46,694 nt of DNA from an uncultured Prevotellaceae bacterium (lineage in GTDB: Bacteria > Bacteroidota > Bacteroidia > Bacteroidales > Bacteroidaceae): positions 1-46,694 of the forward strand of contig ONDA01000033.1 of NCBI GenBank assembly GCA_900316475.1. Reading direction: 5' to 3'. The notes under the pieces are model-generated. The model ran no database searches and was not told the DNA's origin. It worked only from the letters and a program-made list of their open reading frames with translations. A program made the position numbers and the translations under genes. How positions within the stretch are numbered: the stretch's first letter is position 1; every line of letters starts with the position of its first letter. Below, one piece after another: positions 21,627-46,694 of this stretch.

Positions 21627-21648
21627 TATATATATGTTTGTTATTATG

Positions 21649-21711
21649 CCAAAACATAAAGCATCCTATTTTAATAATTTATAACAGATCAGAGAACCGT
21701 CCCCCGATCTA
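21649..21711 (-). repeat. Extended REP copy (63 bp)
   Basis: Sixty of 63 positions match 28849-28911, the segment just upstream of the RAYT gene. The last part (21687-21709) is a REP hairpin: GATCAG, AGAACCGTCC and C-GATC. Direct repetition of the RAYT upstream segment suggests copying from that locus. Confidence 0.75.
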
Positions 21712-30486: not shown

Positions 30487-30590
30487 CTGCCCTACCACAG
30501 CCTTGATATATGCTTGTCTATAAACCGTTGATATGTAACTGCCAAAAAATGGCAAACAATCTACGCGACACACCTTGACAAAGAGAACAT

Positions 30591-30628
30591 AAAAAAAGTT
30601 CCTGTCGGCAGGTGCAGACAGGAACTTT
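30591..30628 (-). terminator. Rho-independent terminator of the ribosomal protein operon
   Basis: AAAGTTCCTGTC (30595-30606) and GACAGGAACTTT (30617-30628) form a perfect 12-bp stem with a 10-nt loop. On the minus strand it is followed by T7. It lies 19 bp after the rplQ stop. A weaker T-run in the other direction could also stop the convergent ATPase transcript. Confidence 0.9.
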
Positions 30629-30646
30629 GATATAGAAGGATAAATA

Positions 30647-31192
30647 TTACTCAGCCTTTGCCTCCTCAGCAGGAGCTTCTGCGGCAGCTTCAGCCTTTGC
30701 CTCCTCAGCAGGAGCTTCTGCGGCAGCTTCAGCCTTTGCCTCCTCAGCAACGGGAGCCTCGGCAGTTTCAGCCTTGGCACCACCACGGCGCGAACGGCGG
30801 GTCTTCTTCTTAGCCTCGCCCTTAGCCATTTCGGGATCGAAGTCGACAAGCTCGATGAAGCAGATCTGGGCAGCATCGCCCTGACGGAAACCGAGCTTGA
30901 TGATACGGGTGTAGCCACCGGGACGGTCGCCTACCTTCTCGGCAACAGTGCCGAAGAGTTCCTTAATGGCATCCTTGTTCTGCAGGTAGCTGAACACGAC
31001 GCGGCGAGAGTTGGTAGAGTCCTCCTTAGCCTTGGTGATAAGGGGCTCCACATACTTCTTGAGGGCCTTAGCCTTTGCGACGGTCGTAGTGATTCTTTTG
31101 TGCATAATCAGCGAGATAGCCATGTTAGCCAACATGGCACTGCGGTGAGATGCAGTACGACCGAGATGGTTGAATTTCTTATTATGTCTCAT
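30647..31192 (-). CDS. rplQ: 50S ribosomal protein L17
   Basis: The 181-residue L17 has the conserved core at residues 1-118 ([59 protein letters not shown]). It is followed by a basic stretch (KKTRRSRRG) and a long low-complexity Ala/Glu/Lys tail. The tail contains a 13-residue (39-bp) unit, [13 protein letters not shown], repeated in tandem at nearly identical DNA sequence, so its length may vary between strains. L17 binds near the exit tunnel of the large subunit. It is the last gene of the operon, after rpoA. Confidence 0.96.
30653..30752 (-). repeat. 39-bp tandem repeats in the rplQ tail
   Basis: The 39-bp unit beginning TCAGCCTTTGCCTCCTCAGC occurs twice in full and once in part, encoding the Ala/Glu/Lys repeats of the L17 tail. 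Confidence 0.8.
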
Positions 31193-31223
31193 TGTTCCTT
31201 TTTGCTTTTATTGGGCAAGTAGC

Positions 31224-32216
31224 TTATTCCTTGTCCAGTTTATACTTTGATATGTCGGTTCCAAACGACAGATTCAGACTCTCGAGCAAATCATCAAGCT
31301 CCGTGAGCGATTTCTTACCGAAGTTGCGGAACTTCAGGAGGTCGGTCTTGTTGTACTGTACGAGATCGCCGAGCGTCTCAACGTCGGCAGCCTTCAGACA
31401 GTTCAAGGCACGAACCGAGAGGTTCATGTCGGTGAGTTTAGTCTTCAGCAGCTGGCGCATGTGCAGTACCTCCTCATCAAACTCCTGGTTGGTCTCCGTC
31501 TCAGATGCCTCAAGGGTAATCTTCTCGTCAGAGAACAACATGAAGTGGTAGATAAGAATCTTGGCAGCCTCCTTCAGAGCGTCCTTCGGGTGGATGGAAC
31601 CGTCCGTGGTGACTTCCAGCACGAGCTTGTCGTAGTCGGTCTTCTGCTCGACACGATAAGGCTCAACGCTGTATTTCACGTTACGGATAGGTGTGTAAAT
31701 AGAGTCGATTGCTATCACGTTCACATCAGTGCAGAACTCGCGGTTCTCGTCGGCGGGGACGTAGCCGCGACCCTTGTTGATCGTGAGGTCAATCTGCATC
31801 GATGCCTTGGAATCTAAATGACAAATCACCAAATCGGGATTCAGCACCTCAAATCCAGTCAGATACTTGCCTATATCACCGGCTTTAAACTCGGTAGAAT
31901 TCTCGACAGTAATAGAGACTTTCTCGTTCTCGAATTCTTCCACAACTTGCTTGAACCTGACTTGCTTCAGGTTCAAGATAATGTTGGTTACATCTTCCTT
32001 AACACCAGGTACTGATGAGAACTCATGCTCAACACCCGCAATGCGAATCGTGTTGATAGCATAGCCCTCGAGCGATGAAAGAAGAATGCGGCGGAGAGCG
32101 TTGCCTACGGTAACACCGAAGCCAGGCTCCAAAGGACGAAATTCGAACTTGCCGAACTTGTCCGATGCTTCCAACATTACGACTTTATCAGGTTTTTGAA
32201 ATGCTAATATCGCCAT
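31224..32216 (-). CDS. rpoA: DNA-directed RNA polymerase subunit alpha
   Basis: At 330 residues this has standard length. The N-terminal domain contains the dimerization and assembly segment [20 protein letters not shown] and [15 protein letters not shown]. The C-terminal DNA- and activator-binding domain (about 255-325) has [21 protein letters not shown] and [20 protein letters not shown], with the helix-hairpin-helix. It scaffolds the RNA polymerase core. It is encoded between rpsD and rplQ as in most bacteria, with short spacers, and shares the operon's transcription. Confidence 0.98.
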
Positions 32217-32230
32217 TAATTTAATGATTT

Positions 32231-32839
32231 TTAGTTTTTAGAGTACAACTCAACGATTGACTGTTCCTTAATGTTCTCGGGGATGTCGGCACGCTCCGGC
32301 AGATGCAAGAACTTACCACCCTTAGAGTTCTCATCCCACTCGATCCAAGGATACTTGCTGTGGTTGAAACCGGCCAAAGCAGCCTCGATAACCTCGAGAG
32401 ACTTTGACTTCTCACGAACAGCAACGATCATTCCGGGCTTCACCTGGAAAGAAGGGATGTTCACCACCTTGCCATCGACAGTAATATGCTTGTGACCGAC
32501 GAGCTGACGTGCTGCAGCACGGGTAGGAGCAATACCAAGACGGAACACCACGTTGTCGAGTCGGCTCTCCAGAAGCTGGAGAAGCACCTCACCGGTGATA
32601 CCTTCGGCCTTAGCAGCCTTCTCAAACAAATTACGGAACTGGCGCTCAAGTACTCCGTATGTGTACTTAGCCTTTTGCTTCTCTGCCAGCATGACAGCAT
32701 ACTCCGACTGCTTGCGGCGGCGGTTATTGCCATGCTGTCCCGGGGGGAAGTTCCTGCGGGACAAAACTTTGTCGGCGCCGAAGATGGGTTCACCAAAACG
32801 GCGTGCAATTTTAGATTTCGGTCCAATATACTTTGCCAT
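32231..32839 (-). CDS. rpsD: 30S ribosomal protein S4
   Basis: The 202-residue primary 16S rRNA-binding protein starts [20 protein letters not shown]. It includes the basic [21 protein letters not shown] loop and the S4 RNA-binding domain ([40 protein letters not shown]). No zinc-binding cysteines are present. S4 nucleates small-subunit assembly and in several bacteria represses its own operon; no such target can be shown here. Spacing to rpoA is 14 bp. Confidence 0.98.
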
Positions 32840-32882
32840 AATACTAAATAAAATTTTCGATTTTCAGATTTTCGATTTCCAA

Positions 32883-33272
32883 TTATACGCGACGACGCTT
32901 CGGAGGACGGCAGCCATTGTGCGGCAGCGGCGTAACGTCGACGATCTCCATCACCTCGATACCGGCACCATGCACGGCACGGATGGCCGACTCACGACCG
33001 TTGCCGGGACCCTTGACGTAGGCCTTCACCTTGCGCAGGCCGAGGTCGAAAGCAACCTTGGCACAATCCTCGGCAGCCATCTGAGCGGCATACGGAGTGT
33101 TCTTCTTTGAGCCGCGGAAGCCCATCTTACCTGCTGACGACCAAGAGATTACCTGACCCTCGTCGTTAGCCAACGAAACGATAATGTTATTGAAAGAGCT
33201 ATGTACGTGGAGCTGACCGATAGCGTTCACTCTCACGTTCCTTTTCTTTGAAGTGACTGTTTTCTTTGCCAT
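32883..33272 (-). CDS. rpsK: 30S ribosomal protein S11
   Basis: The 129-residue platform protein of the small subunit has the conserved [58 protein letters not shown] and the C-terminal [18 protein letters not shown], the last being nearly invariant. It lies between rpsM and rpsD in the alpha-operon order. Confidence 0.98.
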
Positions 33273-33310
33273 AATTCTTAACCCTTAATTGTGAATTGAC
33301 TCATTGTGAA

Positions 33311-33691
33311 TTACTTCGTAGCCTTCTTCTTGTTAGCAACAGTCTTCTTCTTACCTTTACGGGTACGAGCATTGTTCTTCGTGCTCTGGCCGCGGACAGG
33401 AAGACCATGACGATGACGGACGCCACGATAGCAACCAATATCCATCAGTCGCTTGATATTCAACTGGATCTCGCTGCGGAGATCACCTTCTACTTTGAAT
33501 TCAGCGCCGATAATTTCACGGATCTTGGCTGCCTGGTCGTCACTCCACTCACTGACCTTCAGGTCGCGGCTGACACCTGCCTTATCCAATATCTTTGCTG
33601 AACTACTTCGACCGATACCATAGATATAGGTCAATGCGATTTCGCCACGCTTGTTCTGGGGCAAATCTACTCCAACAATTCTTATTGCCAT
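33311..33691 (-). CDS. rpsM: 30S ribosomal protein S13
   Basis: The 126-residue protein of the small-subunit head starts [20 protein letters not shown] at the ATG at 33691; an open frame reaches further upstream but does not match the family. Other motifs are [31 protein letters not shown] and [16 protein letters not shown]. It contacts tRNA and S19. Confidence 0.98.
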
Positions 33692-33704
33692 TATATTTAA
33701 CATT

Positions 33705-33821
33705 TTAACCCTGACGCATCTTGTACTTAGGGTTCTTCTTGTTGATAACGAACAGGCGTCCCTTGCGACGTACAATCTTGCAGTCGGGAGTACGCTTCTT
33801 CAATGATGCTCTTGTCTTCAT
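33705..33821 (-). CDS. rpmJ: 50S ribosomal protein L36
   Basis: This is a 38-codon gene between infA and rpsM. It translates as [20 protein letters not shown], then [18 protein letters not shown] and a stop. The family fold is clear ([17 protein letters not shown]), but of the four zinc ligands of the classical form only one Cys is seen, so this is the zinc-independent (C-minus) type common in Bacteroidetes. Confidence 0.93.
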
Positions 33822-33835
33822 ATCTTCTAAAATGT

Positions 33836-34054
33836 TTATTTGTATCTGAATACAATTCTACCTTTTGTCAAGTCGTAGGGGCTCATCTCCACCTTCACCT
33901 TGTCGCCAGGAAGGATACGGATGTAGTGCATACGCATCTTACCCGAGATGTGGGCTATAATCTGCACCCCATTTTCAAGTTCAACCCGGAACATGGCATT
34001 CGAGAGACTCTCGAGTATCGTTCCGTCCTGCTCAATAGCGGATTGTTTTGCCAT
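33836..34054 (-). CDS. infA: Translation initiation factor IF-1
   Basis: The 72-residue S1/OB-fold protein starts [20 protein letters not shown] and continues with [40 protein letters not shown] and [11 protein letters not shown]. It occupies the ribosomal A site during initiation. It is encoded between map and rpmJ, the standard order. Confidence 0.98.
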
Positions 34055-34060
34055 ACCTTA

Positions 34061-34861
34061 TTAATATAATACTCCTTCTACTTTCTCAGCTTCCTCGAAC
34101 GAGGACAAAATCTCAGCCTTACCCTTACGGATAGCAATGGTGTGCTCGAAGTGGGCGGCAGGCTGGCCGTCACGCGTACGCACCGACCATTTGTCCTGGT
34201 CCAGCCAGACGTCGCGCTTGCCCATCGTTATCATCGGCTCGATGGCGATGCACATACCAGCCTTCAACATGACACCGTTGCCACGGCGACCATAGTTGGG
34301 CACGGGCGGGTCTTCGTGCATCTCGCGGCCTATACCATGTCCGGTGAGTTCACGCACAATACCGTACTTCTGTTCCTCGCAGTGATCCTGCACCGCCGAA
34401 CTGACATCGCCAAGATGACGGCCGGCCTGAGCAGATTCGATACCGAGATAGAGCGCTTCTTTCGTCGTCTTCAGAAGCTTTTTCACCTCCTCCGACACTT
34501 CACCGACACAGAACGTGTAGGCCGAGTCGCCATTGAACCCGTTAAGAAGCGTGCCACAGTCAACGGAAATGATGTCACCATCTTTCAATACCGTCTGCTC
34601 GTTGGGAACACCATGAACAACGACGTCGTTGACCGAAGTACAGATGCTGGCGGGAAACGGCCCTCCGTATGGATTGGGGAAACCCATGAAAGTCGGGATA
34701 GCTCCGTGGTCGCGGATAAACTCGTCGGCCAACTTATCCAACTGGAGGGTCGTTACACCAGGCTTGATATGTTTAGCCAATTCGCCAAGGGTCTTACCAA
34801 CAAGTTGGTTTGCCTGGCGCATCAGCTCTATTTCATCCTCAGTCTTCAGGAATATCTTCAT
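34061..34861 (-). CDS. map: Type I methionine aminopeptidase
   Basis: The 266-residue enzyme removes the N-terminal Met from nascent proteins. The metal ligands sit in the usual motifs: VHGVPNEQTVLKDGDIISVD (Asp), NGDSAYTFCVG (Asp), ELTGHGIGREMHEDP (His), IAIEPMITMG (Glu) and AAHFEHTIAIRKG (Glu). Substrate His lies in FPNPYGGPFPASICTSVNDV downstream. The gene sits 6 bp after secY and 6 bp before infA. Confidence 0.97.
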   Translation of the reverse strand: MKIFLKTEDEIELMRQANQLVGKTLGELAKHIKPGVTTLQLDKLADEFIRDHGAIPTFMGFPNPYGGPFPASICTSVNDVVVHGVPNEQTVLKDGDIISVDCGTLLNGFNGDSAYTFCVGEVSEEVKKLLKTTKEALYLGIESAQAGRHLGDVSSAVQDHCEEQKYGIVRELTGHGIGREMHEDPPVPNYGRRGNGVMLKAGMCIAIEPMITMGKRDVWLDQDKWSVRTRDGQPAAHFEHTIAIRKGKAEILSSFEEAEKVEGVLY

Positions 34862-34867
34862 AGAAGA

Positions 34868-36208
34868 TTAGTAGGCAGCCATACCGCGACCATGAATACG
34901 ACCCGAACTGAGCAGGCCGTCATAGTGGCGCATTAACAGGTGACTCTCAATCTGGGCAAGCGTGTCGAGCACGACACCCACAAGAATCAGCAGTGACGTA
35001 CCGCCGAAGAACTGCGAGAAAGCATCCTGCACGTTCAGCAGGCTGGCGAGAGCCGGCATGACAGCGATGAAGGCAATGAACAGCGAACCGGGCAGTGTGA
35101 TACGCGACATCACCGTGTCGATGAAATCAGCAGTATCCTTACCGGGCTTTACTCCGGGAATGAAACCGTTGTTACGTTTCATGTCCTCAGCCATCTGTGT
35201 AGGATTCAGCGTGATAGCGGTGTAGAAGTACGTGAATGCGATGATCAGCAGGGCAAAGATGATGTTGTATGTCCAGCTGTGGTGATCAAGCATCGAGCGC
35301 ACAAACCAGCTGGCGTTCTCCGGAGCCGAATACTGGACGATAGCCAGAGGGATGAACATCAGTGCCTGAGCAAAGATGATAGGCATCACATTGGCAGCGA
35401 ACAGCTTCAGGGGGATATACTGGCGGGCACCACCGTAGGTCTTGTTACCCACGACACGCTTTGCATACTGTACGGGAATCTTGCGGACACCCTGTACCAG
35501 AACGATAGATGCACAAACAACGGCGTAGAGGATGATAATCTCGACGAGGAACATCACGAGGCCACCACCGGTAATAGCGGTGAAACGCGAGCTGACCTCC
35601 TGGATGAATGCCTGAGGCAGACGGGCGATGATACCAATCATAATGATCATCGAGATACCGTTTCCTATTCCTTTATCAGTAATGCGCTCACCGAGCCAGA
35701 GGATAAACATACTACCTGCAGCCAGGATGACAGTGGCGGGAATCATGAACACAGGCCAGCTAATGCCAGAGGCCAGCGCAGCACCCGACTGCATCTTCAG
35801 GTTGATAAGGTAGCTCGGTGCCTGGAACAGCAGGATAGCCACTGTCAGGTACCGAGTGTACATGCTAATCTTCTTGCGGCCGCTCTCGCCCTCACGCTGC
35901 ATCTTCTGGAAATAAGGCACAGCGACAGCGAGGAGCTGCATTACGATAGAAGCCGAGATGTAAGGCATAATACCAAGCGCGAAAATCGACGCATTGGAGA
36001 ATGCACCACCGGAGAACATATCAAGCAGTGCCAGAAGACCGCCAGCGGTCTGCTGCTGCAACTTATCCAGCATCACCGGATTGATACCAGGAAGCACCAC
36101 GAATGAGCCAAAACGGTAAATGGCTACAAAGAGGCATGTAATGAGGAGACGCTGACGCAGGTCCTCAATCTTCCAAATGTTCTTCAGTGTCTCTATAAAC
36201 TTCTTCAT
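34868..36208 (-). CDS. secY: Protein translocase subunit SecY
   Basis: This is a 446-residue, 10-transmembrane-segment channel of the Sec translocon. The first helix and plug region read LLITCLFVAIYRFGSFVVLP and GGLLALLDMFSGGAFSNASI; the family signatures are IMPYISASIVMQLL and LTVAILLFQAPSYLI. The C-terminal loops end in RIHGRGMAAY. It opens for secreted and membrane proteins with SecE and SecG. It is encoded between rplO and map. Confidence 0.98.
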   Translation of the reverse strand: MKKFIETLKNIWKIEDLRQRLLITCLFVAIYRFGSFVVLPGINPVMLDKLQQQTAGGLLALLDMFSGGAFSNASIFALGIMPYISASIVMQLLAVAVPYFQKMQREGESGRKKISMYTRYLTVAILLFQAPSYLINLKMQSGAALASGISWPVFMIPATVILAAGSMFILWLGERITDKGIGNGISMIIMIGIIARLPQAFIQEVSSRFTAITGGGLVMFLVEIIILYAVVCASIVLVQGVRKIPVQYAKRVVGNKTYGGARQYIPLKLFAANVMPIIFAQALMFIPLAIVQYSAPENASWFVRSMLDHHSWTYNIIFALLIIAFTYFYTAITLNPTQMAEDMKRNNGFIPGVKPGKDTADFIDTVMSRITLPGSLFIAFIAVMPALASLLNVQDAFSQFFGGTSLLILVGVVLDTLAQIESHLLMRHYDGLLSSGRIHGRGMAAY

Positions 36209-36214
36209 CTTTGT

Positions 36215-36661
36215 TTAGATTGTTGTTGCGTTACCACCTACTGCCTTGATAGCTTCCTCGGCAGTCTTTGAGAATGCGTTGGCTTCTACGTCAACCTTGG
36301 CCTTCAGCTCACCGTTGCCGAGAATCTTCACCAGCACCTTGCCGTTGGTCAGACCCGCAGCAACCAGCTCCTGGATGCCAATCTTCGTGAGGTTCTTCTC
36401 CTCAGCCAGCTTCTGAAGTGTCGACAGGTTCACAGCGAAGTACTCCTTATGGTTGATGTTCTTGAAGCCAGACTTCGGCACGCGGCGCTGCAGCGGCATC
36501 TGTCCACCCTCAAAACCAATCTTTCTCTTATAACCAGAGCGAGCCTTAGCACCCTTGTGACCACGGGTTGACGTACCACCCAGACCAGAACCAGGTCCGC
36601 GGCCGATACGACGACGTGAATGTGTAGAGCCTTCTGCAGGTTTCAAATTATTCAGTTTCAT
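36215..36661 (-). CDS. rplO: 50S ribosomal protein L15
   Basis: The 148-residue late-assembly protein of the large subunit starts MKLNNLKPAEGSTHSRRRIG. The glycine-rich GRGPGSGLGGTSTRGHKGAK, the GFEGGQMPLQRRVPKSGF signature and a C-terminal domain ending KAVGGNATTI are all typical. It is 6 bp from secY. Confidence 0.98.
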   Translation of the reverse strand: MKLNNLKPAEGSTHSRRRIGRGPGSGLGGTSTRGHKGAKARSGYKRKIGFEGGQMPLQRRVPKSGFKNINHKEYFAVNLSTLQKLAEEKNLTKIGIQELVAAGLTNGKVLVKILGNGELKAKVDVEANAFSKTAEEAIKAVGGNATTI

Positions 36662-36691
36662 AATCGAATCTCCTTAATTAATGTTTGTTTA

Positions 36692-36868
36692 TTACTCAAC
36701 AACGGTCACCAGGTGATGTACCTTGCGAATCATACCGCGGATAGAAGGATTGTCCTCAACTTCGACAACCTGCGAAATCTTGCGCAGGCCGAGAGCCTCG
36801 AGCGTGCGTTTCTGATCAACCGGATAACCGATCTTACTCTTTATCTGCTTAACCTTAATTGTTGCCAT
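36692..36868 (-). CDS. rpmD: 50S ribosomal protein L30
   Basis: A 58-codon gene fills the rpsE-rplO gap. It translates as [40 protein letters not shown] and [18 protein letters not shown]. The pattern of the first strand, the RTLxALGL helix and the RGMIxxVxHLV end identify L30. The ATG at 36868 is the only plausible start. Confidence 0.96.
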
Positions 36869-36882
36869 AATCTTACTCTCCT

Positions 36883-37395
36883 TTATCCATTGAACACTTT
36901 ATCCATACTGATGCTGCGAGTACCTGCAACGGTGTAGGCATCACGCATCTGGCTCAGGGCTACGATGGTAGCCTTCACCAGGTTGTGGGGGTTCGACGAA
37001 CCCTTAGACTTGGCGAGCACGTCCTTGATACCTACGCTCTCCAGAACGGCACGCATAGCACCACCGGCCACCAGACCGGTACCAGCAGCTGCCGGTTTGA
37101 GGAACACCTGTGCACCGCCGAAGCGAGCTTCCATCTCGTGGGGGATAGTACCCTTCAGCACGGGAACCTTTACTAAGTTCTTCTTGGCAGCCTCTACACC
37201 CTTGGCGATGGCGGCGGTAACTTCACCAGCCTTGCCCAAGCCCCAGCCAATCACGCCATTGCCGTCACCGACGACGACGATGGCTGCGAATGTAAAGGTG
37301 CGACCACCCTTGGTTACCTTCGTTACACGGTTGATGGCAACCAGTCTGTCTTTCAACTCTACGTCACTATTTACTTTTACGTTCTTCATTGCCAT
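36883..37395 (-). CDS. rpsE: 30S ribosomal protein S5
   Basis: The 170-residue protein has the dsRNA-binding-like N-terminal domain ([39 protein letters not shown]) and the C-terminal domain ([40 protein letters not shown]). It acts in decoding accuracy together with S4. Neighbours rplR and rpmD are in standard order. Confidence 0.98.
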
Positions 37396-37401
37396 AATCG
37401 T

Positions 37402-37746
37402 TTAGAAATTAAGTCCACCTTTACGTGCTGCATCAGCCAGTGACTTCACGCGGCCGTGGTACAGATAGCCGTTACGGTCGAAGACCACGGCGGTAACGCC
37501 GGCCTCCTGAGCCTTCTTGGCCACGAGTTCACCCACCTTGGCAGCCTGCTCAATCTTAGGCATAGCCTCCAGACCGAGAGAAGATGCAGATGCGAGGGTT
37601 TTACCTTCCAAGTCATTGATTACCTGAGCATAAATCTGCTTGTTTGAGCGGAAGACACTCAGACGGGGGCGCTCGGCAGTACCGAAGACGCTCTTACGAA
37701 TTCTGTATTTAATCTTAATTCGTCTTTCTACTTTCTTTGTTGTCAT
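37402..37746 (-). CDS. rplR: 50S ribosomal protein L18
   Basis: The 114-residue 5S rRNA-binding protein of the central protuberance includes [40 protein letters not shown], then [20 protein letters not shown] and AARKGGLNF at the end. Length and ends fit the family. Confidence 0.97.
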
Positions 37747-37785
37747 AATCTTTAATGTTTAATCTTTAATGTTTAATTTTCAAGA

Positions 37786-38355
37786 TTACTTTGCAGATGC
37801 CGACTTACCCGACTTACGACGGATAACCTCACCCTTGAACAAAATACCCTTTCCTTTATAAGGCTCAGGCATACGGAAAGAACGAATCTTGGCACAAATC
37901 ATACCAAGCAACTGCTTGTCGCAAGACTCCAGGATAATCTGGGGGTTCTGGTTACGCTCAGACTTCGTCTCCACCTTCACTTCCTTGGGAAGCTGGATGA
38001 AGATGGGGTGCGTATAACCGAGAGCGAACTCGATGATGTTGCCCTGGTTGCTGACACGGTAGCCAACACCGACGAGTTCCATCTCCTTCTTGTAGCCCTC
38101 GCTCACGCCGACTACCATATTGTTGACGAGTGCGCGGTACAGGCCGTGGAAAGCCTGCTTCTGCTTGATGTTCACAGCACTGTTCTCGTCAATCTCGAAT
38201 GTTACGTGGCCATCCTCAATCTTTACCTTGATAGAGGGGTCAACCTTCTGTGAAAGCTCACCCTTCGGGCCTTTTACATTAACGACGCCGTCTTTATCCT
38301 GAGCAACCGTAACGCCTGCAGGAATACTAATTGGCAATTTACCTATTCTTGACAT
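37786..38355 (-). CDS. rplF: 50S ribosomal protein L6
   Basis: The 189-residue protein starts MSRIGKLPISIPAGVTV at the ATG at 38355. A TTG at 38370 in frame is rejected because it would add residues not seen in the family; that stretch instead contains a GGAGGA ribosome binding site. Both L6 repeats are present, and the end has the family signature PEPYKGKGILFKGEVIRRK. It lies near the factor-binding site and the sarcin-ricin loop. Confidence 0.97.
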   Translation of the reverse strand: MSRIGKLPISIPAGVTVAQDKDGVVNVKGPKGELSQKVDPSIKVKIEDGHVTFEIDENSAVNIKQKQAFHGLYRALVNNMVVGVSEGYKKEMELVGVGYRVSNQGNIIEFALGYTHPIFIQLPKEVKVETKSERNQNPQIILESCDKQLLGMICAKIRSFRMPEPYKGKGILFKGEVIRRKSGKSASAK

Positions 38356-38370
38356 ATTCAGTTCCTCCAA

Positions 38371-38766
38371 TTAATATACATAGCAAAGCACCTCACCACC
38401 AATCTTCTGCTGTGCGGCCTCTTTGTCAGTCATTACACCTTTAGACGTGGATAAGATAGCGATACCCAGTCCGTTAATTACTCTCGGCATGTCCTTGTAG
38501 CCGGTGTACTTACGCAAACCGGGGGTTGACACGCGCTTTAAGAACTTGATGGCGTTCTCTTTGGTGGCAGGGTCATACTTCAAAGCCACCTTGATGGTAC
38601 CCTGAGGGCCATCCTCGATGAACTTGTAGTTCAGGATGTAACCCTTCTCGAAGAGGATCTTCGTAATTTCCTTCTTCAAGTTTGACGCAGGAATCTCTAC
38701 AACACGGTGATGAGCCATGATTGCATTTCTGAGTCTGGTCAAGAAATCTGCTATTGGATCTGTCAT
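38371..38766 (-). CDS. rpsH: 30S ribosomal protein S8
   Basis: The 131-residue 16S rRNA central-domain binder starts MTDPIADFLTRLRNAIMAHH and ends with LGIAILSTSKGVMTDKEAAQ and GGEVLCYVY. In E. coli, S8 is the feedback repressor of the spc operon; a binding site in this mRNA cannot be confirmed by eye. Confidence 0.98.
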   Translation of the reverse strand: MTDPIADFLTRLRNAIMAHHRVVEIPASNLKKEITKILFEKGYILNYKFIEDGPQGTIKVALKYDPATKENAIKFLKRVSTPGLRKYTGYKDMPRVINGLGIAILSTSKGVMTDKEAAQQKIGGEVLCYVY

Positions 38767-38837
38767 AAAAAAATTAAGTTTTAATTAATCGGGACTGCCC
38801 CGACAATATTAAACAATAAAATGAATTTCTTCGTTGT

Positions 38838-39155
38838 TTACCAGCTGGCCTTCTTCACTCCCGGAATCAGACCGCTTGATGCCATCTCACGGAACTGGAT
38901 ACGAGAGAGACCGAACTGGCGCATATATCCCTTGGGACGGCCCGTGATCTTGCAGCGGTTGTGCAGACGGATGGGGTTGGCGTTGCGGGGAATGCTCTGC
39001 AGCTTACGGGCAGCCTCATAGGCAGCCATAGCGCCCTCTTCCGTGTTCACATCGGCCGTAGCGATGATTTTCTTCAGGGCGGCACGCTTCTCAGCATAGC
39101 GGGCTACGAGCTTTGCGCGCTTCACCTCGCGGGCTTTCATTGATTCTTTTGCCAT
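38838..39155 (-). CDS. rpsN: 30S ribosomal protein S14
   Basis: The 105-residue, zinc-independent form of S14 lacks the CxxC pairs. It includes [20 protein letters not shown] and the C-terminal [20 protein letters not shown], then [20 protein letters not shown]. It is longer than the short zinc form and acts in the head of the small subunit. Confidence 0.97.
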
Positions 39156-39160
39156 GTCTC

Positions 39161-39715
39161 TTAATCTTTATTGTTCTTGAAAGGAAGACCGAAAGCCTTG
39201 AGCAGAGCAAAGCCCTCTTCGTCGGTCTGAGCCGTTGTCACGAAGGTGATGTTCATACCCTGGATGCGGTCCACTGAATCGATATTGATCTCGGGGAAGA
39301 TGATCTGCTCCTGGATACCCAGTGTGTAGTTACCACGTCCGTCGAACTTCGTCTCGATACCCTTGAAGTCGCGGATACGAGGCAGAGCGATGCGCACGAG
39401 ACGCTCCAGGAACTCATACATACGCTCACGGCGCAGTGTCACCATCACGCCGATGGGCATCTTCTTACGGACCTTGAAGTTGGCGATATCCTTCTTCGAG
39501 TAGGTAGCCACGGCCTTCTGACCGCAGATAGCCGAAATCTCGTTGATAGCCACCTCAATGATCTTCTTGTCCTGCGTAGCGTCACCCAGTCCCTGGTTGA
39601 CGACAATCTTCTTCAGGACGGGAATCTGCATTGCAGACGTATAGTTGAACTGCTTCTGCAGTGCGGGAGCAATCTTCTGCTTATACTCCTGCTTTAACTG
39701 TGCTGTATTTGCCAT
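39161..39715 (-). CDS. rplE: 50S ribosomal protein L5
   Basis: The 184-residue 5S rRNA-binding protein includes [40 protein letters not shown] and [20 protein letters not shown]. Its ATG overlaps the rplX stop by 1 bp (TAATG), implying translational coupling. Confidence 0.98.
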
Positions 39716-40032
39716 TACTTAATCTCCTCCCCTGACTTTTTGGCGATGCGGGTCACCTTCTTGCCTTCGCGCTTGATGGCGATGCGGGTAGCCTTACCGC
39801 TCTTCGGATCAATTAAACTCAAATTCGAAATATGGATAGGAGCCTCTACTTTCTCAAAGCCTCCCTGAGGATTCTTGGCACTGGGCTTCGTGCTCTTGTT
39901 GACGAAGTTCACTCCCTCAACGATGGCACGCTCCTTCTCTACCAAGACCTTCAGCACCTTGCCAGTCTTGCCCTTGTCCTCACCGGCCAGGACGATGACT
40001 GTGTCGTTTTTCTTAATATGTAACTTAGCCAT
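39715..40032 (-). CDS. rplX: 50S ribosomal protein L24
   Basis: The 105-residue early-assembly protein has the KOW motif at the N-terminus ([20 protein letters not shown]) followed by [20 protein letters not shown] and [20 protein letters not shown]. Its stop codon overlaps the rplE start by 1 bp. Confidence 0.97.
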
Positions 40033-40052
40033 TAGTTTTACTCTTTTTAATG

Positions 40053-40418
40053 TTAAAGAACCTCAGGTGCCAAAGATACGACTTTCATGTTCACGGCACG
40101 GAGCTCACGTGCTACGGGGCCGAAGATACGGCTTCCGCGGAGCTCGCCGGCGTTGTTCAGCAGTACGCAAGCATTGTCGTCGAAGCGGATGTACGAGCCA
40201 TCGGCACGACGGATCTCCTTCTTGGTACGAACAACCAAAGCCTTAGACACTGCACCCTTTTTCACATCGCTCGTCGGGATTGCGTTCTTGATAGCAACGA
40301 CAATCACGTCGCCAACGCTTGCATAGCGGCGGCGGGTACCACCGAGCACGCGGATGCACAGGCACTCGCGGGCACCGCTGTTGTCAGCTACTGTAAGTCT
40401 TGATTCTGTCTGTATCAT
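40053..40418 (-). CDS. rplN: 50S ribosomal protein L14
   Basis: The 121-residue interface protein starts [20 protein letters not shown] and ends [23 protein letters not shown]. The family signature [20 protein letters not shown] is intact. Only 2 bp separate it from the rpsQ stop. Confidence 0.98.
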
Positions 40419-40420
40419 AA

Positions 40421-40678
40421 TTACTTAGCTTTTTCTACGATTTGTACTAAACGCCATCTCTTGGTCTTAGAGAGGGGGCGGGTCTCCATAATGAGCACGG
40501 TATCACCAACCTGGCACTCATTCTTCTCGTCGTGTGCATGGTACTTTTTCGTCTTCTGGACGAACTTACCATAAATCGGGTGCTTCTCCTTGAACTTGGC
40601 AGCGATAACAATGGTTTTATCCATCTTGTTGCTAATCACGACACCCTGTCTTGTCTTTCTTAAATTTCTTGTTTCCAT
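40421..40678 (-). CDS. rpsQ: 30S ribosomal protein S17
   Basis: The 85-residue OB-fold protein has [20 protein letters not shown] at the start and the family signature [20 protein letters not shown] near the end. It binds 16S rRNA early in assembly. Confidence 0.98.
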
Positions 40679-40690
40679 AGTGGACCATTG

Positions 40691-40885
40691 TTATTTATTA
40701 AGTTCTCTCTCACGAAGTACAGTCTTCATGCGGGCGATATCACGACGGGCAGCCTTAATCAGAGAAGGGTTCTCAAGCGGAGAGACGGTGTGGTTAAACT
40801 TCATCTGCTCGTACTTGGCCACTTCGGCCTCGATGCGCTCGGCCAGTTCCTTGGTCTCGAGCTCTTTGATTTCGTTAGTCTTCAT
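40691..40885 (-). CDS. rpmC: 50S ribosomal protein L29
   Basis: The 64-residue two-helix protein at the exit tunnel includes MKTNEIKELETKELAERIEA, KYEQMKFNHTVSPLENPSLI and the family signature AARRDIARMKTVLRERELNK. The order rplP-rpmC-rpsQ is standard. Confidence 0.97.
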   Translation of the reverse strand: MKTNEIKELETKELAERIEAEVAKYEQMKFNHTVSPLENPSLIKAARRDIARMKTVLRERELNK

Positions 40886-40892
40886 ACTCTAA

Positions 40893-41321
40893 TTAAGCGT
40901 TTTTATCGTAATCACGTCTTACTACAAACTTAGTCTTCACGGGCAGCTTCTGGGCGCCGAGGCGCAGAGCCTCCTTGGCGACGTCGAAGGGTACACCCTC
41001 TACTTCGAAGAGGATACGACCCGGTGTGACGGGAGCGACCCATCCTGCGGGGTCACCCTTACCTTTACCCATTCGCACGTCAGCAGGCTTGCGAGTGATG
41101 GGTTTGTCCGGGAAGATGCGAATCCACACCTGACCTTCACGGTTCATGTATCGGTTGATGGCAACACGTGCTGCCTCAATCTGGCGGCTGTCAATCCACT
41201 TGGCGTCCAGCGTCTTGATGCCGAACGAGCCGAAAGCCAGCGTCGTACCGCGGTGGGCGTTGCCTTTGTTGCCACGTCCGTCCTGCGGCCTTCTATATCT
41301 TACTCTCTTAGGTTGTAACAT
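40893..41321 (-). CDS. rplP: 50S ribosomal protein L16
   Basis: The 142-residue protein near the A site starts [20 protein letters not shown]. Family signatures [20 protein letters not shown] and [20 protein letters not shown] are present, as is the basic C-terminus. Confidence 0.98.
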
Positions 41322-41335
41322 GATAGCTTCTACTT

Positions 41336-42073
41336 TTAACGATTATTATTCTTCTTACCACCGCGGAACTTACGGCCACCATTGTTACCGCCACCGTTAC
41401 CACGGCCGGCGTTCTTCTCCTGCGTGAAGTTCGGAGCCAGGTCAACCTTTCCGTAAACCTCACCGCGGCAGATCCAGACCTTGATACCCAGCAGGCCGAC
41501 CTTTGTCAGAGCCTCCGTGGGGCAGTAGTCGATGTCGGCGCGGAACGTGTGCAGCGGCGTACGTCCTTCCTTGAACATCTCGCTGCGTGCGATTTCAGCA
41601 CCGTTCAGACGACCCGAGATGAGCACCTTGATGCCCTCGGCACCGGCACGCATCGTGTTCTGGATAGCCATCTTGATAGCACGACGGTAAGCAATCTTGC
41701 CCTCCACCTGGCGAGCGATGTTGTTGGCAACGATTGTTGCGTCGAGTTCCGGACGCTTCACTTCAAAGATGTTAATCTGAATCTCCTTGTCGTAAAGCTT
41801 CTTCAGTTCTTCCTTCAGTTTGTCGACATCCTGTCCGCCCTTACCAATGACGATGCCCGGGCGAGCCGTGCAGATAGTAATGGTGACAAGCTTCAGTGTG
41901 CGCTCGATGACAATCTTCGAGACACTTGCCTTGGCCAGACGCTCGTTCAGATACTTACGGATTTTCTGGTCCTCGACCAGGTTGTCGCCGAAGTTCTTGC
42001 CTCCGAACCAATTAGAATCCCAACCTCTTACGATACCCAGACGGTTGCTTATTGGATTAACTTTCTGTCCCAT
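41336..42073 (-). CDS. rpsC: 30S ribosomal protein S3
   Basis: The 245-residue protein has the KH domain with [20 protein letters not shown], and the C-terminal domain with [20 protein letters not shown] and [16 protein letters not shown]. The last ~25 residues form a Gly/Asn/Lys/Arg-rich low-complexity tail ([19 protein letters not shown]) not present in E. coli S3. S3 forms part of the mRNA entry channel and helicase. Confidence 0.98.
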
Positions 42074-42078
42074 ACTTA

Positions 42079-42483
42079 TTATTTTTCATCATTAGTTTTA
42101 GCGTCAACAAACAGAGTCACGTGGTTCGAACGCTTACGGATACGATAGCCACGGCCCTGGGGTGCGGGTCTCATTCTCTTCATAGTGACACCCTCGTCAA
42201 CGAACACGCGGGTGATGAACAGCTCCCCGGCCTCAGCCTTGCGGTCATTCTTCTGTTCCCAGTTGTTGATGGCCGAGCGGAGGAGTTTCTCTACGTCAGC
42301 AGCGGCAGCCTTCTTCGAGAAACGAAGCACACCGAGTGCGCGGTCAACCTCCATGCCGCGAATCATGTCGACGACATAGCGCATCTTGCGCGGTGACGAG
42401 GGGCAGCCTTTCAGCTTGGCAAAATACTGTGTCTTAAGTGCTGCTTTTCTTTCTTCAGCCTTAATATGTTTTCTTGCTCCCAT
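42079..42483 (-). CDS. rplV: 50S ribosomal protein L22
   Basis: The 134-residue exit-tunnel protein includes [26 protein letters not shown]-like [20 protein letters not shown] and the beta-hairpin region [20 protein letters not shown]. Changes in that hairpin are known to give macrolide resistance in other species; no such change can be judged here. Confidence 0.97.
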
Positions 42484-42520
42484 TTTAATCTTTAATCTTT
42501 AATGTTTAATGTCCCTGGGA

Positions 42521-42787
42521 TTACTTCTTGTTGCCGGCGTGTCCACCGAAGCGGCGGGTAGGTGCGAACTCACCCAGCTTGTGGCCGACCATGTTCTCAG
42601 TAATGTAGACAGGGATAAATTTGTTACCGTTATGAACTGCAACAGTGTGTCCCACGAAGTCCGGGGAAATCATTGATGCTCTGGCCCATGTCTTGACGAC
42701 ATTCTTCTTACCGCTCTCATTCATGGCGAGAACCTTCTTCTCAAGCGATACGTTGATATACGGACCTTTCTTTAATGAACGACTCAT
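42521..42787 (-). CDS. rpsS: 30S ribosomal protein S19
   Basis: The 88-residue protein of the small-subunit head starts [20 protein letters not shown] and has the family signature [22 protein letters not shown]. It lies 23 bp after the rplB stop. Confidence 0.98.
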
Positions 42788-42810
42788 AATTTACTCTTGT
42801 GTTAACTTGT

Positions 42811-43575
42811 TTACTTCTTGTTAGCTCTTTCAATAATGTACTTGTTTGAAAGCTTCTTCGGTGCACGAGTCTTGAGGCCCTTAGCGTACAAGCCCTTGCG
42901 TGAACGCGGATGTCCACCAGACTGACGTCCTTCACCACCACCCATCGGGTGATCGTGCGGGTTCATGACAACACCACGGTTGTGCGGACGACGTCCCAAC
43001 CAGCGTGAGCGGCCAGCCTTACCAGACTGTTCCAGAGCGTGGTCGGAGTTGCCTACACTACCTACAGTAGCCTTACAAGCAGAGAGGACCTTGCGAGTCT
43101 CTCCCGAGGGGAGCTTGATAACACAGTAGTTACCCTCGCGCGAAGTCAACTGAGCGAAATTACCAGCCGAACGAACGAGCAGAGCGCCCTGACCGGGACG
43201 GAGTTCGATGTTGTGAATCACCGTACCCACAGGGATGTTGGCCAGGGGCAGGGCATTACCCACCTCGGGCACTGCCTCAGCTCCAGACATCAGCGTTGCG
43301 CCAACCTGCAGTCCATTAGGAGCAATAATATAACGTTTTTCACCATCAGCGTAGTAGAGCAGAGCGATGCGAGCCGAGCGGTTCGGATCGTACTCGATGG
43401 TCTTTACTACAGCTGGAACACCATCCTTCTCTCGCTTGAAGTCGATCAGACGATACTTCTTCTTGTGGCCGCCGCCGATGTAGCGGACAGTCATCTTACC
43501 GGTGTTGTTTCGACCGCCGGTAGAACGCTTACCGTAAACGAGAGACTTCTCTGGCACGGATGCAGTAATATCCTC
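42811..43575 (-). pseudogene. rplB: 50S ribosomal protein L2, 5' end missing
   Basis: The sequence encodes L2 from about residue 22 onward: [20 protein letters not shown], then the full body to the family signature [20 protein letters not shown] and [14 protein letters not shown]. The usual start (MAVRK... to about GTF) is absent. Going upstream, the L2 frame runs into L23 sequence at about 43576 and meets a TGA within a few codons. The only remaining start is a GTG at 43557 inside the conserved ASVPEKS segment, leaving 248 residues instead of about 274. L2 is essential for subunit joining and peptidyl transfer, so this is either an assembly or sequencing deletion, or a real lesion with another copy elsewhere. 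The rest of the gene is intact. Confidence 0.85.
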
Positions 43576-43891
43576 GGCCCTCCTTCAGAGTGACGATTGC
43601 CTTCTTGTAGGCGTTCTTCTGTCCCTTCACGAGACCAGACTTCGTATATCGGCTTGAGCGCTTGCCGGCATACTTGACCGTGTTCACTGCGAGCACAGTC
43701 ACATTGTACAGACCTTCAACCTCTTTCTTGATCTCAACCTTGTTAGCCTCGGGCTTGACGATGAATCCGACCTTCACTTCGGCCTTCTTCGTACGCTCCT
43801 CACCCTTCACCTTATAGGTACGCTCAACTGAAGACTTGTCTGTAATCTTGGTCATCTTCTCAGTGACCAGCGGCTTAATGATAAATCCCAT
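43529..43891 (-). pseudogene. rplW: 50S ribosomal protein L23, 3' end missing and read into rplB
   Basis: Residues 1-105 are a normal Bacteroidetes L23 (MGFIIKPLVTEKMTKITDKS, then VNTVKYAGKRSSRYTKSGLV and [10 protein letters not shown]). After LKEG, where the family usually has a short end such as a -TIDF-x-SNI type strand, the frame continues for 15 unrelated residues ([15 protein letters not shown]) that are rplB codons read in the wrong frame. The natural 3' end, the stop, the spacer and the rplB start are therefore missing. L23 surrounds the exit tunnel and docks trigger factor and SRP. See the rplB entry for interpretation. Confidence 0.82.
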
Positions 43892-43927
43892 AGTTATTTA
43901 CTATTTGACTATTTACTATTTAATAAT

Positions 43928-44554
43928 TTATCCCAGAACACCGTCGATAGTCTTCAGCGAGTTCTCAGTGATGACCAGCACGTCAGCGTCGAGCACCTTG
44001 TAGGTGTTCACGTTCTGAGCCTCGATCACGTCTGCGCGCTGCAGGTTACGAGCCGACAGATACACATTCTTGTTCGTCTCAGGCGTCACGAAGAGCATCT
44101 TCTTGCCGTCGACCTTCAGGTTCTTGGCGATAGCCAGCAGTTCCTTCGTCTTCGGAGCATCCAGATTGAAGTCCTCGACGACGACGATGGCATTCTCCTG
44201 AGCCTTGTAGCTCAGAGCCGACTTACGAGCCAGCTGCTTCACCTTCTTGTTCAGCTTGAAGCCGTAGTCGCGGGGCTTCGGACCGAAGACGCGGCCACCA
44301 CCGATGAGCAGGGGCGAGTTGATGTCGCCGTGACGTGCGCCGCCGCCGCCCTTCTGGCGACCGAGCTTGCGGGTAGAGCCGCTTATTTCGCTGCGCTCCT
44401 TCGACTTGGCAGTGCCCTGGCGCTGGTTGGCCATATACTGCTTGACGTCGAGGTAAATGACGTGGTCATTAGGTTCAATTCCGAAGATAGCCTCGTTGAG
44501 AGCCACCTTGCGGCCGGTCTCCTGACCTTTGATATTCAATACACTAACTTCCAT
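43928..44554 (-). CDS. rplD: 50S ribosomal protein L4
   Basis: The 208-residue protein includes [20 protein letters not shown], the extended loop [20 protein letters not shown] reaching the exit tunnel, and [20 protein letters not shown]. In E. coli, L4 represses the S10 operon through its leader; the leader here (45174-45354) is a candidate but unproven. It lies 4 bp after the rplC stop. Confidence 0.98.
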
Positions 44555-44558
44555 GTTC

Positions 44559-45173
44559 TTACTTATTCACAATTACGGTTGAACCATTACATCCGGCGCA
44601 GCTTCCCTTCACGAGAATCAAGTTGTGCTCCGGAATTACCTTTAACACTCTGAGGTTCTGAGTCGTGACACGGTCGCAACCCATGTGGCCACCCATTCTC
44701 ATTCCCTTGAACACCTTAGCGGGATATGAGCAGGCGCCGATAGAACCCGGCTTGCGGGCGCGGTCGTCCTGACCGTGAGTGCTCTGGCCGACGCCGCCGA
44801 AACCGTGGCGCTTCATAACACCCTGAAAACCCTTACCCTTAGAGGTACCTACCACGTCGACGAACTCTGCGTCGTCGAAGATGTCCACCGTCACGGTGTC
44901 ACCGAGGTTTAACTCCTCGTCGAACTTGAACTCGGCCAAGTGGGCCTTAGGCGTCGTGTTTGCCTTCTTGAAGATACCCATCATCGCTTTGGTGGTGTTC
45001 TTCTCCTTCTTCTCACCGAAGGCGAGCTGAACGGCCTTGTAACCGTCCTTCTCAACAGACTTTACCTGTGTCACAACGCAAGGACCAGCTTCGATAACAG
45101 TGCACGGCACGTTCTTGCCGTCGGCACTGAAAACGGATGTCATTCCGATTTTTCTTCCTAATAATCCTGGCAT
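44559..45173 (-). CDS. rplC: 50S ribosomal protein L3
   Basis: The 204-residue early-assembly protein starts [20 protein letters not shown] and has the family signature [20 protein letters not shown] with [19 protein letters not shown]. It is the first gene of this operon. rpsJ (S10), which normally precedes it, is not found in the 1.5 kb upstream. Confidence 0.98.
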
Positions 45174-45354
45174 TTCAGTTTTAAATTGTTTAATGTTTAA
45201 TTGTATAAATGTTATTCGTTTTTTGCCTTGTCATCGTAGCGCTTCGGCCTATATACACACGAAAAGAAGAAACAGCCCACCGCCCTCTTTCGAAAGCTAA
45301 ACTGCTCTTTTTCAGTGTATTGTTAGCTATTTGCCAGCGCAATAATCACTTTAG
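45174..45354 (-). promoter_or_regulatory. Long 5' leader of the ribosomal operon
   Basis: From the predicted start near 45354 to the rplC ATG at 45173 lie about 180 nt without an ORF. The leader contains several short complementary stretches and is AT-rich near the start codon. A leader this long before ribosomal genes often hosts feedback regulation by a ribosomal protein; no defined fold could be drawn by eye. Confidence 0.4.
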
Positions 45355-45360
45355 CGGCTG

Positions 45361-45368
45361 CAAAGGTA
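45361..45368 (-). promoter_or_regulatory. -7 element TAccTTTG of the ribosomal operon
   Basis: The minus strand has TTGC, 19 nt, then TACCTTTG, a full Bacteroidetes promoter match about 190 bp before rplC. It appears to be the main promoter for the 29-gene operon. Confidence 0.72.
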
Positions 45369-45451
45369 CACATTATTATTGAAATACGCAACCCCTATTC
45401 CATCTTTCTTTGTAATATTTAATCTTTTTTAATACAACAGCCTGCCCTCAA

Positions 45452-45512
45452 CTTTGCTTACGGTAAACCCGAGGTTCCCTTACTGGGAATCCCGGGTTTA
45501 CCGTAAGCAAAG
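45452..45512. repeat. 61-nt giant hairpin upstream of the ribosomal promoter
   Basis: Arms 45452-45470 and 45494-45512 are perfectly complementary over 19 bp. The stem continues inward by nine more positions, with one mismatch and one wobble, to a 5-nt loop (45480-45484). It stands alone between the toxin terminator and the rplC promoter. It could be a bidirectional terminator or a small palindromic repeat. Confidence 0.65.
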
Positions 45513-45557
45513 GTCAAGTCTCCAAACGCCTACAACGCGAAAAGCTGGTCCGCCCAG

Positions 45558-45591
45558 GAAACCACCAAGAAAAAGGACAAAAAAATCTCCG
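45558..45591 (+). repeat. 34-bp direct repeat, copy 1 (toxin side)
   Basis: GAAACCACCAAGAAAAAGG, one variable base, then CAAAAAAATCTCCG. It matches 46330-46363 at 33 of 34 positions. This copy forms half of the toxin gene terminator. Confidence 0.8.
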
Positions 45592-45615
45592 TTGCACTAA
45601 CTGCTGCGGAGATTT
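45577..45615 (-). terminator. Rho-independent terminator of the toxin-antitoxin operon
   Basis: On the minus strand AAATCTCCG and CGGAGATTT (plus coordinates 45607-45615 and 45583-45591) pair over 9 bp and are followed by a T7 tract. It begins 3 bp after the toxin stop codon. Confidence 0.8.
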
Positions 45616-45617
45616 TA

Positions 45618-45938
45618 TTACAGGATTCTTCGTTTCAGAGTTTCCGGGTTCATTCGAGTGTCCCAGAGATCCCTAATGTAAACGGTATCGGATTTAGGGG
45701 CATAATAGTAGACCAACTTGAAACGACGCATAATATGACAACTCCGATATTGGTGTCGCTTTCCTGCTAACAATGGCTCCAAGGTATAGGAAATCGGATG
45801 TTTTTGCAGTCTGTCATAGATGACAGATGCTTCTGTCAGCCATTTTGTAGCAGTCTTTTGGCCATATTCGACCTTCGCATTTTCCACATAGTTGTTGAAA
45901 AGGCGCCAAGCCTGTTTTCTCCATTTCACTACAGCCAT
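45618..45938 (-). CDS. RelE/ParE-family type II toxin
   Basis: The 106-residue protein has the RelE/ParE fold pattern: WRKQAWRLFNNYVENAKVEY at the N-terminal helices, then TATKWLTEASVIYDRLQKHP, LLAGKRHQYRSCHIMRRFKL and VYYYAPKSDTVYIRDLWDTR, with the usual late basic residues and terminal Arg. Such toxins cleave ribosome-bound mRNA (RelE) or poison gyrase (ParE); which applies is not clear. The ATG overlaps the antitoxin ORF by 10 bp, so both are translated together. Confidence 0.83.
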   Translation of the reverse strand: MAVVKWRKQAWRLFNNYVENAKVEYGQKTATKWLTEASVIYDRLQKHPISYTLEPLLAGKRHQYRSCHIMRRFKLVYYYAPKSDTVYIRDLWDTRMNPETLKRRIL

Positions 45939-46249
45939 GGATGTTCCTTTCTCATTGCGGCCCAGAAATCATCAACCTGAATCCACTTCTCAGGATCTTC
46001 AATGCCTGCATCAACCTCGTCCATGTCGGCCTCTATCTCGGCCACCCGCTGCTCGAACACCTCCGAATCGTCGGTGTAGAATCCGAATGTTCCCAGAGGA
46101 ATACGATCTATCTTCTCTGCCTCTTCGTCCACATAAGTGATGCCAGAATGGCCAAACTCCCGTGTGGCGTAAGTAACAGCAGGCTCAGCAGCCGTTATAC
46201 AGCCAAAGTCGTCCTCTTCTTCCATTACCGGATATCTCTTTTCTTCCAT
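45929..46249 (-). CDS. Antitoxin of the RelE/ParE module
   Basis: The 106-residue, strongly acidic protein (many Asp/Glu; ends WAAMRKEHPWL) lies immediately upstream of the toxin and overlaps it. The N-terminal half (ITAAEPAVTYATREFGHSGI) does not show a clear HTH or ribbon-helix-helix domain. The acidic C-terminal half (EIEADMDEVDAGIEDPEKW) could wrap the basic toxin. Assignment rests on gene order, overlap and charge. A promoter lies 61 bp upstream. Confidence 0.72.
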   Translation of the reverse strand: MEEKRYPVMEEEDDFGCITAAEPAVTYATREFGHSGITYVDEEAEKIDRIPLGTFGFYTDDSEVFEQRVAEIEADMDEVDAGIEDPEKWIQVDDFWAAMRKEHPWL

Positions 46250-46309
46250 ATTTACAATATTTTATATAAGCCCGCCCACCGCCCACGAATGGGCTATCAA
46301 GCGATGGCG

Positions 46310-46317
46310 CAAAGATA
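46310..46317 (-). promoter_or_regulatory. -7 element TAtcTTTG of the toxin-antitoxin operon
   Basis: The minus strand has TTGG, 19 nt, then TATCTTTG. The TTGG lies within the 34-bp direct repeat copy 2 (46330-46363), so the repeat supplies the -33 element. Confidence 0.72.
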
Positions 46318-46329
46318 GCAATTTATTTT

Positions 46330-46363
46330 GAAACCACCAAGAAAAAGGGCAAAAAAATCTCCG
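46330..46363 (+). repeat. 34-bp direct repeat, copy 2 (antitoxin side)
   Basis: It matches 45558-45591 at 33 of 34 positions. The two copies frame the toxin-antitoxin module; this one carries the -33 element of its promoter. Confidence 0.8.
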
Positions 46364-46554
46364 AAGCGCAGGGCTTTTTCATTGACCTCTTTCATTTGAC
46401 CGTTTATTTGTCGTACGCGAGTTCATGGCGTCACGAAGGTGTTGCTGTTGTAACTTTTAATGCCATAGCCACCCTCTTCCCTTGTCTCCGCCTTCGGATT
46501 CTGTTTTTCAGGGCATGGCAAAGCGGCCCAAGTCATTACAGCCGAAATGGCGAA

Positions 46555-46694
46555 AGTTGGTGACACCCAGCACACCTGATACTGATTATCAGGCTGTTGC
46601 GGCGGCGGATGGTAGCACCAGTGGTAGCACCAATGCCCACACCAGCACTGACACCTGAACCGGAAAAACGTCACGGCCGCTGAGAAAAATCTCA
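46555..46694 (+). mobile_element. Second copy of the nested palindrome family, cut by the window end
   Basis: CGAAAGTTGGTGACACC, then ACACC, TGATTATCAG and GTTGC follow in the same order as at 21248-21296. GGTAGCACCA-type repeats and ACGTCACGGCCGCTGAGAAA come next, as in the first copy. The far end is outside the window. Confidence 0.6.

Follow-up and report, generated by a model that had tools for sequence, protein, structure and literature searches.

Local errors in metagenome-assembled genomes have been described as broken genes, gaps despite overlapping sequence and contig ends at non-unique sequence (Chen et al. 2020, PMC7111523). The same study suspects them to be a prominent problem of IDBA-UD and notes that Ns are inserted despite overlap. 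Assembly graphs are known to branch, and assemblies to go wrong, where several genomes share sequence (Abramova et al. 2024, PMC11479545). The rplW-rplB locus analysed here resembles the first system in all three respects, except that several species are damaged at one and the same protein-coding spot, as seen in their assemblies. With the second it has in common the shared k-mers, the fragments, the misassemblies and, as we assume, the branched graphs; that work concerns resistance genes and draws a parallel to rRNA genes, whereas in our case the affected sequence is the 5′ end of the rplB gene of a single genus. A third described system comprises the ribosomal-protein leader RNAs (Eckert and Weinberg 2020, PMC7247131). 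Like these leaders, a candidate RNA hairpin at our locus covaries and is associated with ribosomal protein genes. An L2 leader candidate (rplB, rpsS, rplV, rpsC) is listed there for Alphaproteobacteria, and part of Table 1 gives L13 and S4 leaders and no L2 leader for Bacteroidia; in contrast to a leader, the present hairpin lies inside the coding sequence.

The window, that is the whole stretch of DNA analysed, is one complete contig of 46,694 bases (G000:C33) from a genome of 83 contigs and 3.29 Mb that is 91.45% complete. It carries a ribosomal operon on the minus strand, in which the usual ribosomal genes from rplC to rplQ flank the lesion on both sides. Translation of the ORFs and comparison with the nearest relative (locus L106, genome G368) delimited the lesion within 42811–43891 of the minus strand. 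Codons 1–105 of rplW (L23; MGFIIKP...LKEG) are native and occupy 43577–43891, and its last approx. ten codons and the stop codon are absent. The fused ORF continues through 43529–43576 with an out-of-frame tail and a stop codon, both read from rplB DNA. The rplB (L2) remnant extends from CDS base 63 to the stop codon (42811–43576); its reading frame is regained at 43575 with E22 and ends at 42811, and the start codon and residues 1–21 are gone. At the junction (43576–43577) rplB CDS base 63 follows directly on rplW codon 105 in a blunt join. Compared to L106, exactly 100 bp are missing, consisting of ten rplW codons plus stop, a 5-bp spacer and rplB CDS 1–62. Not a single base is common to both sides of the join, i.e. 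there is no microhomology, which also holds for some genuine deletions. These data bear out the sequence-only reading in its description of the lesion, which had L23 normal up to LKEG and then out of frame, L2 present from about residue 22 and some 100–150 bp missing.

Profile searches reflected the same losses. With the GTG-initiated ORF as query, the rplB remnant scored 370 bits against NCBIfam TIGR01171 rplB_bact (cut-off 174.5) over profile positions 28–274 of 275 only, and a full-length match to bacterial L2 was not obtained. The L23 profile NF004363 gave 85.1 bits at a cut-off of 81, with a match that stops at position 88 of 96; one other protein in this search, a fragment from L045, was too short to be informative. 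A locus search of 60 genomes, the window's own included, found matches in 42, namely in 41 congeners and the own genome. The rplB-side alignment started exactly at query position 325 in 38 of the 41 congeners, and wherever the rplW-side alignment ended at 324 the gap comprised 98–101 bases. Recurrence of an alignment break at one position across congeners exceeds chance.

Very probably, judging from the comparisons presented here, the join is a local assembly error and the living genome lacks the deletion. L2 and L23 are both held to be essential. Two genes that need to work are broken here, and their remnants show few amino-acid changes: compared to L106, the rplB remnant differs by 49 synonymous and four nonsynonymous codons, the rplW remnant by 14 synonymous and three nonsynonymous ones. 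Both remnants look functional; had the lineage carried a defective L2 start for a long time, more amino-acid changes would have been expected. If the 100-bp deletion were real, the cell would have to start L2 at an internal GTG, 27 residues short at the N-terminus, and make an L23 that ends in foreign sequence. We regard such a deletion as very improbable, even though the junction sequence is clean and free of Ns, most of the length of both ORFs stays open and L106 is the closest relative on either flank. Apart from the presumably essential nature of both products and the few amino-acid changes, it is opposed by the blunt junction, which shows neither microhomology nor a flanking repeat, and by the lack of a spare gene copy in the assembled genome. 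The exact junction was likewise absent from viral contigs, a weak test that was expected to be uninformative. A pattern scan of genome contigs, covering only deletions that leave 5–35 bases between two motifs and possibly excluding records of the own genome, returned ten stretches; only that of the rumen genome RUG12354 came from the rplW-rplB region, with a different junction, and the other nine belonged to other proteins.

Translation of a truncated L2 also appears unlikely from the start site. The sequence-only reading had proposed a GTG start behind an AGGAGG made by the junction. That AGGAGG is not a product of the join and was rejected as a junction-created start site: it represents lysine-glutamate-glycine codons of native L23, is present in the intact loci L007 and L106 and stands 21 nt upstream of the GTG. 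As Bacteroidia ribosomes reportedly do not recognise Shine-Dalgarno sequences (PMC9976891), this distant motif does not provide a suitable ribosome-binding context.

A chimera of two species at the junction was considered and rejected. Among 149 loci, L106 was the closest relative on both sides, followed by L005, which ranked second for the flanks or third on rplW alone. Since both flanks share the same best relative, the contig was not stitched here from two distant species.

The sequence-only reading had also allowed for another copy in the cell and had suggested a search of the rest of the genome. This search, run on the assembled genome (91.45% complete), yielded one PF00181 (rplB) and one PF00276 (rplW) match, both broken and both located at the lesion. 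A 121-base query spanning the junction in intact L007 found the missing segment nowhere else in the genome, the best match (E 1.2) being the remnant itself. A spare copy of rplB or rplW within the assembled contigs was thus rejected. Across the order, PF00181 is single in 116 of 117 other genomes with a match, with three in G503. One might still place an intact pair in the unassembled part of the genome and take the window contig for a broken extra copy, given a completeness of 91.45% in 83 contigs. This we consider practically negligible, because the lesion sits among the usual ribosomal genes from rplC to rplQ, no copy occurs in other contigs and PF00181 is almost always single in the order.

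Further support for an assembly error came from the same spot in other assemblies. The congener set comprised 149 loci from 146 genomes, 29 from the 60-genome search and 120 with a match to a 20-mer anchor, ATTACTGCATCCGTGCCAGA (R at one place in the search; window 43550–43569, minus strand). The 120 loci were picked by hand among the matches listed, and all 149 carry the 20-mer. Of 398 genomes searched in the genus, 226 contain it. Genome totals of the 60-genome search, the 20-mer search, the PF00181 survey of the order and the survey that includes G566 contain the window's own genome. Deletions at the spot, with different endpoints, were present in three of the 149 loci: L003 (G050, RUG12354), L008 (G034) and L148 (G317). 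Three loci contained N gaps, of 67 N in L088 and 33 N in L092, both at most 90 bases from the anchor, and of 2 N in L082 at a distance of 625 bases. A lesion screen flagged seven loci, i.e. the three deletions, the N gap of L088, the contig end of L150, and L051 and L072, which harbor only point variants and have open frames. Thirteen contig ends fell within the fetched stretches, 11 of which lay at most 165 bases from the anchor (P = 2.5e-6 compared to uniform placement). In the 60-genome search, contigs of G037, G047 and G033 also ended near or inside rplB. Where the contig measured 1 Mb or more, both genes were intact (24/24 loci, none affected), a comparison that is partly circular as any contig ending at the spot is short.

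Protein checks of rplW and rplB were passed in 279 of 298 cases. The 19 failures derived from L003, L008, L148, L043, L133, L141, L082 and L088 and from the contig-end loci L081, L087, L097, L102, L103, L105, L110, L119, L138 and L150. Several of these errors are located away from the spot, namely a tandem repeat in L133, a frame break in L043, an internal stop in rplB of L141 and the N gap of L082, so that congener genomes err beyond the hot spot as well. In L133 (G388), approx. 11 codons at about rplB codons 128–138 are tandemly repeated with a change of frame, resembling an unmerged contig overlap.

The deletion might instead belong to a minority strain or to dead cells, with the assembler picking that path. 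Contigs are consensus paths, and other species carry different lesions at the spot, as a strain mixture would allow. A minority allele, however, seldom beats the majority path, independent deletions at one spot would be needed in several species, and the N gaps and contig ends require no deletion allele at all. We give the strain mixture just as little credence as a real deletion. In principle, the place could also be a real mutational hot spot. The observation that sits least comfortably with an artefact comes from another genus: G566 (L225) carries a frame-breaking deletion of approx. 22 bp in the rplB stretch that forms the candidate hairpin described below (approx. 1440–1470, gene sense). 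Its genome is 99% complete in 30 contigs, and the neighbouring rplD, rplW, rpsS and rplV read normally. Damage to this stretch outside the genus speaks for a real deletion. The option raised in the sequence-only reading that the assembly had lost a segment is strongly supported: congeners show further lesions as well as contig ends at the spot, both remnants have few amino-acid changes, and the 24 loci on long contigs are intact, the latter comparison being partly circular. Its description of the lesion stood as well; a spare copy gained no support from the assembled contigs, a truncated L2 is unlikely and the AGGAGG is not made by the junction.

The spot coincides with DNA that is shared to an unusual extent. 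Among 134 intact loci one 31-mer is common to 113 and one 55-mer to 69, and in approx. 400 sampled pairs a 55-mer was shared by 36% within this 170-bp stretch and by 7% over the remaining approx. 1330 bp; all 134 loci had been preselected for the 20-mer, which raises the sharing. Conservation extends to silent sites. In 18 loci of equal length, drawn from the 27 intact ones of the 60-genome search, unchanging residues with four or six codons used an invariant codon in 8 of 10 cases in rplB codons 15–34 and in 4 of 9 cases in codons 2–14. The corresponding counts in later rplB blocks were 1/13, 3/17, 4/23, 3/29 and 3/42. Strong conservation across intact congeners is also visible by eye in the DFYSNI-coding DNA with which rplW ends. 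The conserved block may reach across the intergenic spacer.

The locus is likely hard to assemble because of this near-identical DNA across species (one 31-mer in 113 of 134 loci), and shared k-mers, contig ends and N gaps in other genomes mark it as a difficult one. Such an error could have arisen as follows. The end of rplW and the first approx. 35 codons of rplB are near-identical in DNA across many species of the genus. In a community sample the shared stretch would form a branched node of the assembly graph, at which contigs stop or get badly patched; the rplW flank leading in and the rplB flank leading out would then have been joined bluntly, with loss of the intervening 100 bp. As the junction contains neither a shared k-mer nor microhomology, the simplest mis-traversal of a de Bruijn graph fails as an explanation, and we assume a faulty gap or scaffold join. 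We infer that the window genome is a metagenome assembly, that its reads would hold the missing 100 bp and that an assembler step lies behind the join. The RUG genomes, to which RUG12354 belongs, were assembled with idba_ud and MEGAHIT (k 27–87) from 150-base reads (PMC6785717).

Some further features of the window and the genome were observed. The rpsJ gene is not found upstream of rplC in the window (45174–46694) but on contig C71 (G000:C71:2321-2605, L227), where a gene that by eye looks HAD-like lies beyond it. In G045, in G024 and in G368, the nearest relative, rplC directly follows rpsJ. Homology to G368 ends just past rpsJ on C71 and resumes approx. 44 bases later upstream of rplC in the window, therefore an insertion, a rearrangement or a misassembly is located between the two genes. 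Two small overlapping ORFs upstream of rplC (45618–45938 and 45929–46249) have by eye the look of a ParE/RelE-type toxin-antitoxin pair; neither gave a Pfam match at E≤0.001. The G+C content is 0.52–0.60 in the first 20 kb and 0.44–0.53 thereafter, with a boundary near 20000–22000. Finally, rplQ (L17; 30647–31192) encodes a long, repetitive C-terminal tail rich in alanine, glutamate and lysine.

The missing segment contains one arm of a putative RNA hairpin. Analysis with RNAalifold and covariation tests pointed to an 8-bp helix in which rplB CDS 53–60 pairs with CDS 81–88, corresponding to codons 18–20 and 27–30. The 5′ arm is absent from the window, and the 3′ arm survives at 43551–43558 of the minus strand. 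Two alignments were built from rows chosen without the 20-mer. Alignment A2 consisted of 24 rows of the family, five of them from the same genus, and A1 of 35 rows, namely A2 plus 11 rows from other families of the order. Rows were dropped if they were duplicate 60-mers or, as in 16 order rows, had no histidine at codon 15; L225 was omitted for its own deletion. The row filter excluded 19 loci, some of which were regained later. In A2, 98.4% of the cells were paired and 19 were changed on both sides, values that none of 500 shuffles reached for either measure. In A1, 88.9% were paired with 30 double-changed cells, again matched by none of 500 shuffles; related sequences may, as a caveat to all shuffle counts, beat shuffles without any structure. 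Slides by +3 or −3 columns keep the codon phase and served as control against codon bias. They reduced pairing to 37.5–40.6% with no double-changed cell in A2, and to 35.4–39.6% with seven or one such cells in A1. Weaker measures were less distinctive: further pair types were as numerous in 129 and 72 of 500 shuffles, and pairs with a double change in 17 and one of 500.

The changes themselves are compensatory. The pairs that vary among the family rows (54/87, 57/84 and 60/81) all link third codon positions, with exchanges from C-G to U-A and with G-C, U-A, C-G and A-U at the loop-closing pair. Pair 58/83 is G-C instead of A-U in L173, L178, L179 and L186, which entails alanine for threonine at residue 20 and alanine for valine at residue 28; L187 is an exception. 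Neighbouring families show paired amino-acid changes, T20 occurring with V28 and A20 with A28. Within the genus, each position of the helix is paired in 130 or 131 of 131 distinct sequences, a set largely picked by a 20-mer that covers the 3′ arm, so that conservation of this arm is partly by construction. The stem was predicted by RNAalifold for the sets of the genus, the family and nearby families; none was predicted in 13 more distant rows of the order, and no structure on the mixed alignment A1. Four single-sequence folds gave z-scores from −0.83 to −3.71, the L106 stretch lacking part of the hairpin, and folding energy alone is weak evidence for it. A search of window positions 30000–46694, which hold one hairpin arm only, and of four intact loci against Rfam returned only sub-threshold miRNA matches (E≤1), none of them related to rplB. 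A second small hairpin (CC.GG ... CC.GG) is possible at about rplB CDS 22–36, e.g. in L012, L016 and L022, and its arms seem to co-vary by eye and partly in RNAalifold.

Compared to ribosomal-protein leaders, the element shows compensatory changes in a helix (A2 and A1), lies in translated sequence and matched no known Rfam family. On the basis of the alignments, we see about an even chance that it is an undescribed cis-acting RNA hairpin in rplB codons 18–30 of Bacteroidaceae and nearby families, kept by compensatory changes and maybe involved in control of the S10 operon. That it acts as a feedback or translation-control site of this operon is a guess. Neither an rplB element in Bacteroidales nor an assembly hot spot at this place was described in the literature that our search returned, although this does not prove that such reports are lacking. 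As a candidate regulator, the hairpin may perhaps be a better lead than the lesion.

The rplW-rplB join as such is in all likelihood not a biological feature, and the claim of a cell living with a truncated essential L2 is removed. In its place stands a specific and recurrent failure: several assembled genomes of the genus have the start of rplB cut off, interrupted by a gap or shortened. Phylogenies and completeness estimates make use of rplB as one of the single-copy markers, and wrong rplB starts or missing genes could bias such uses. At the same time, DNA that is near-identical including its silent sites points to a testable candidate RNA element within rplB.
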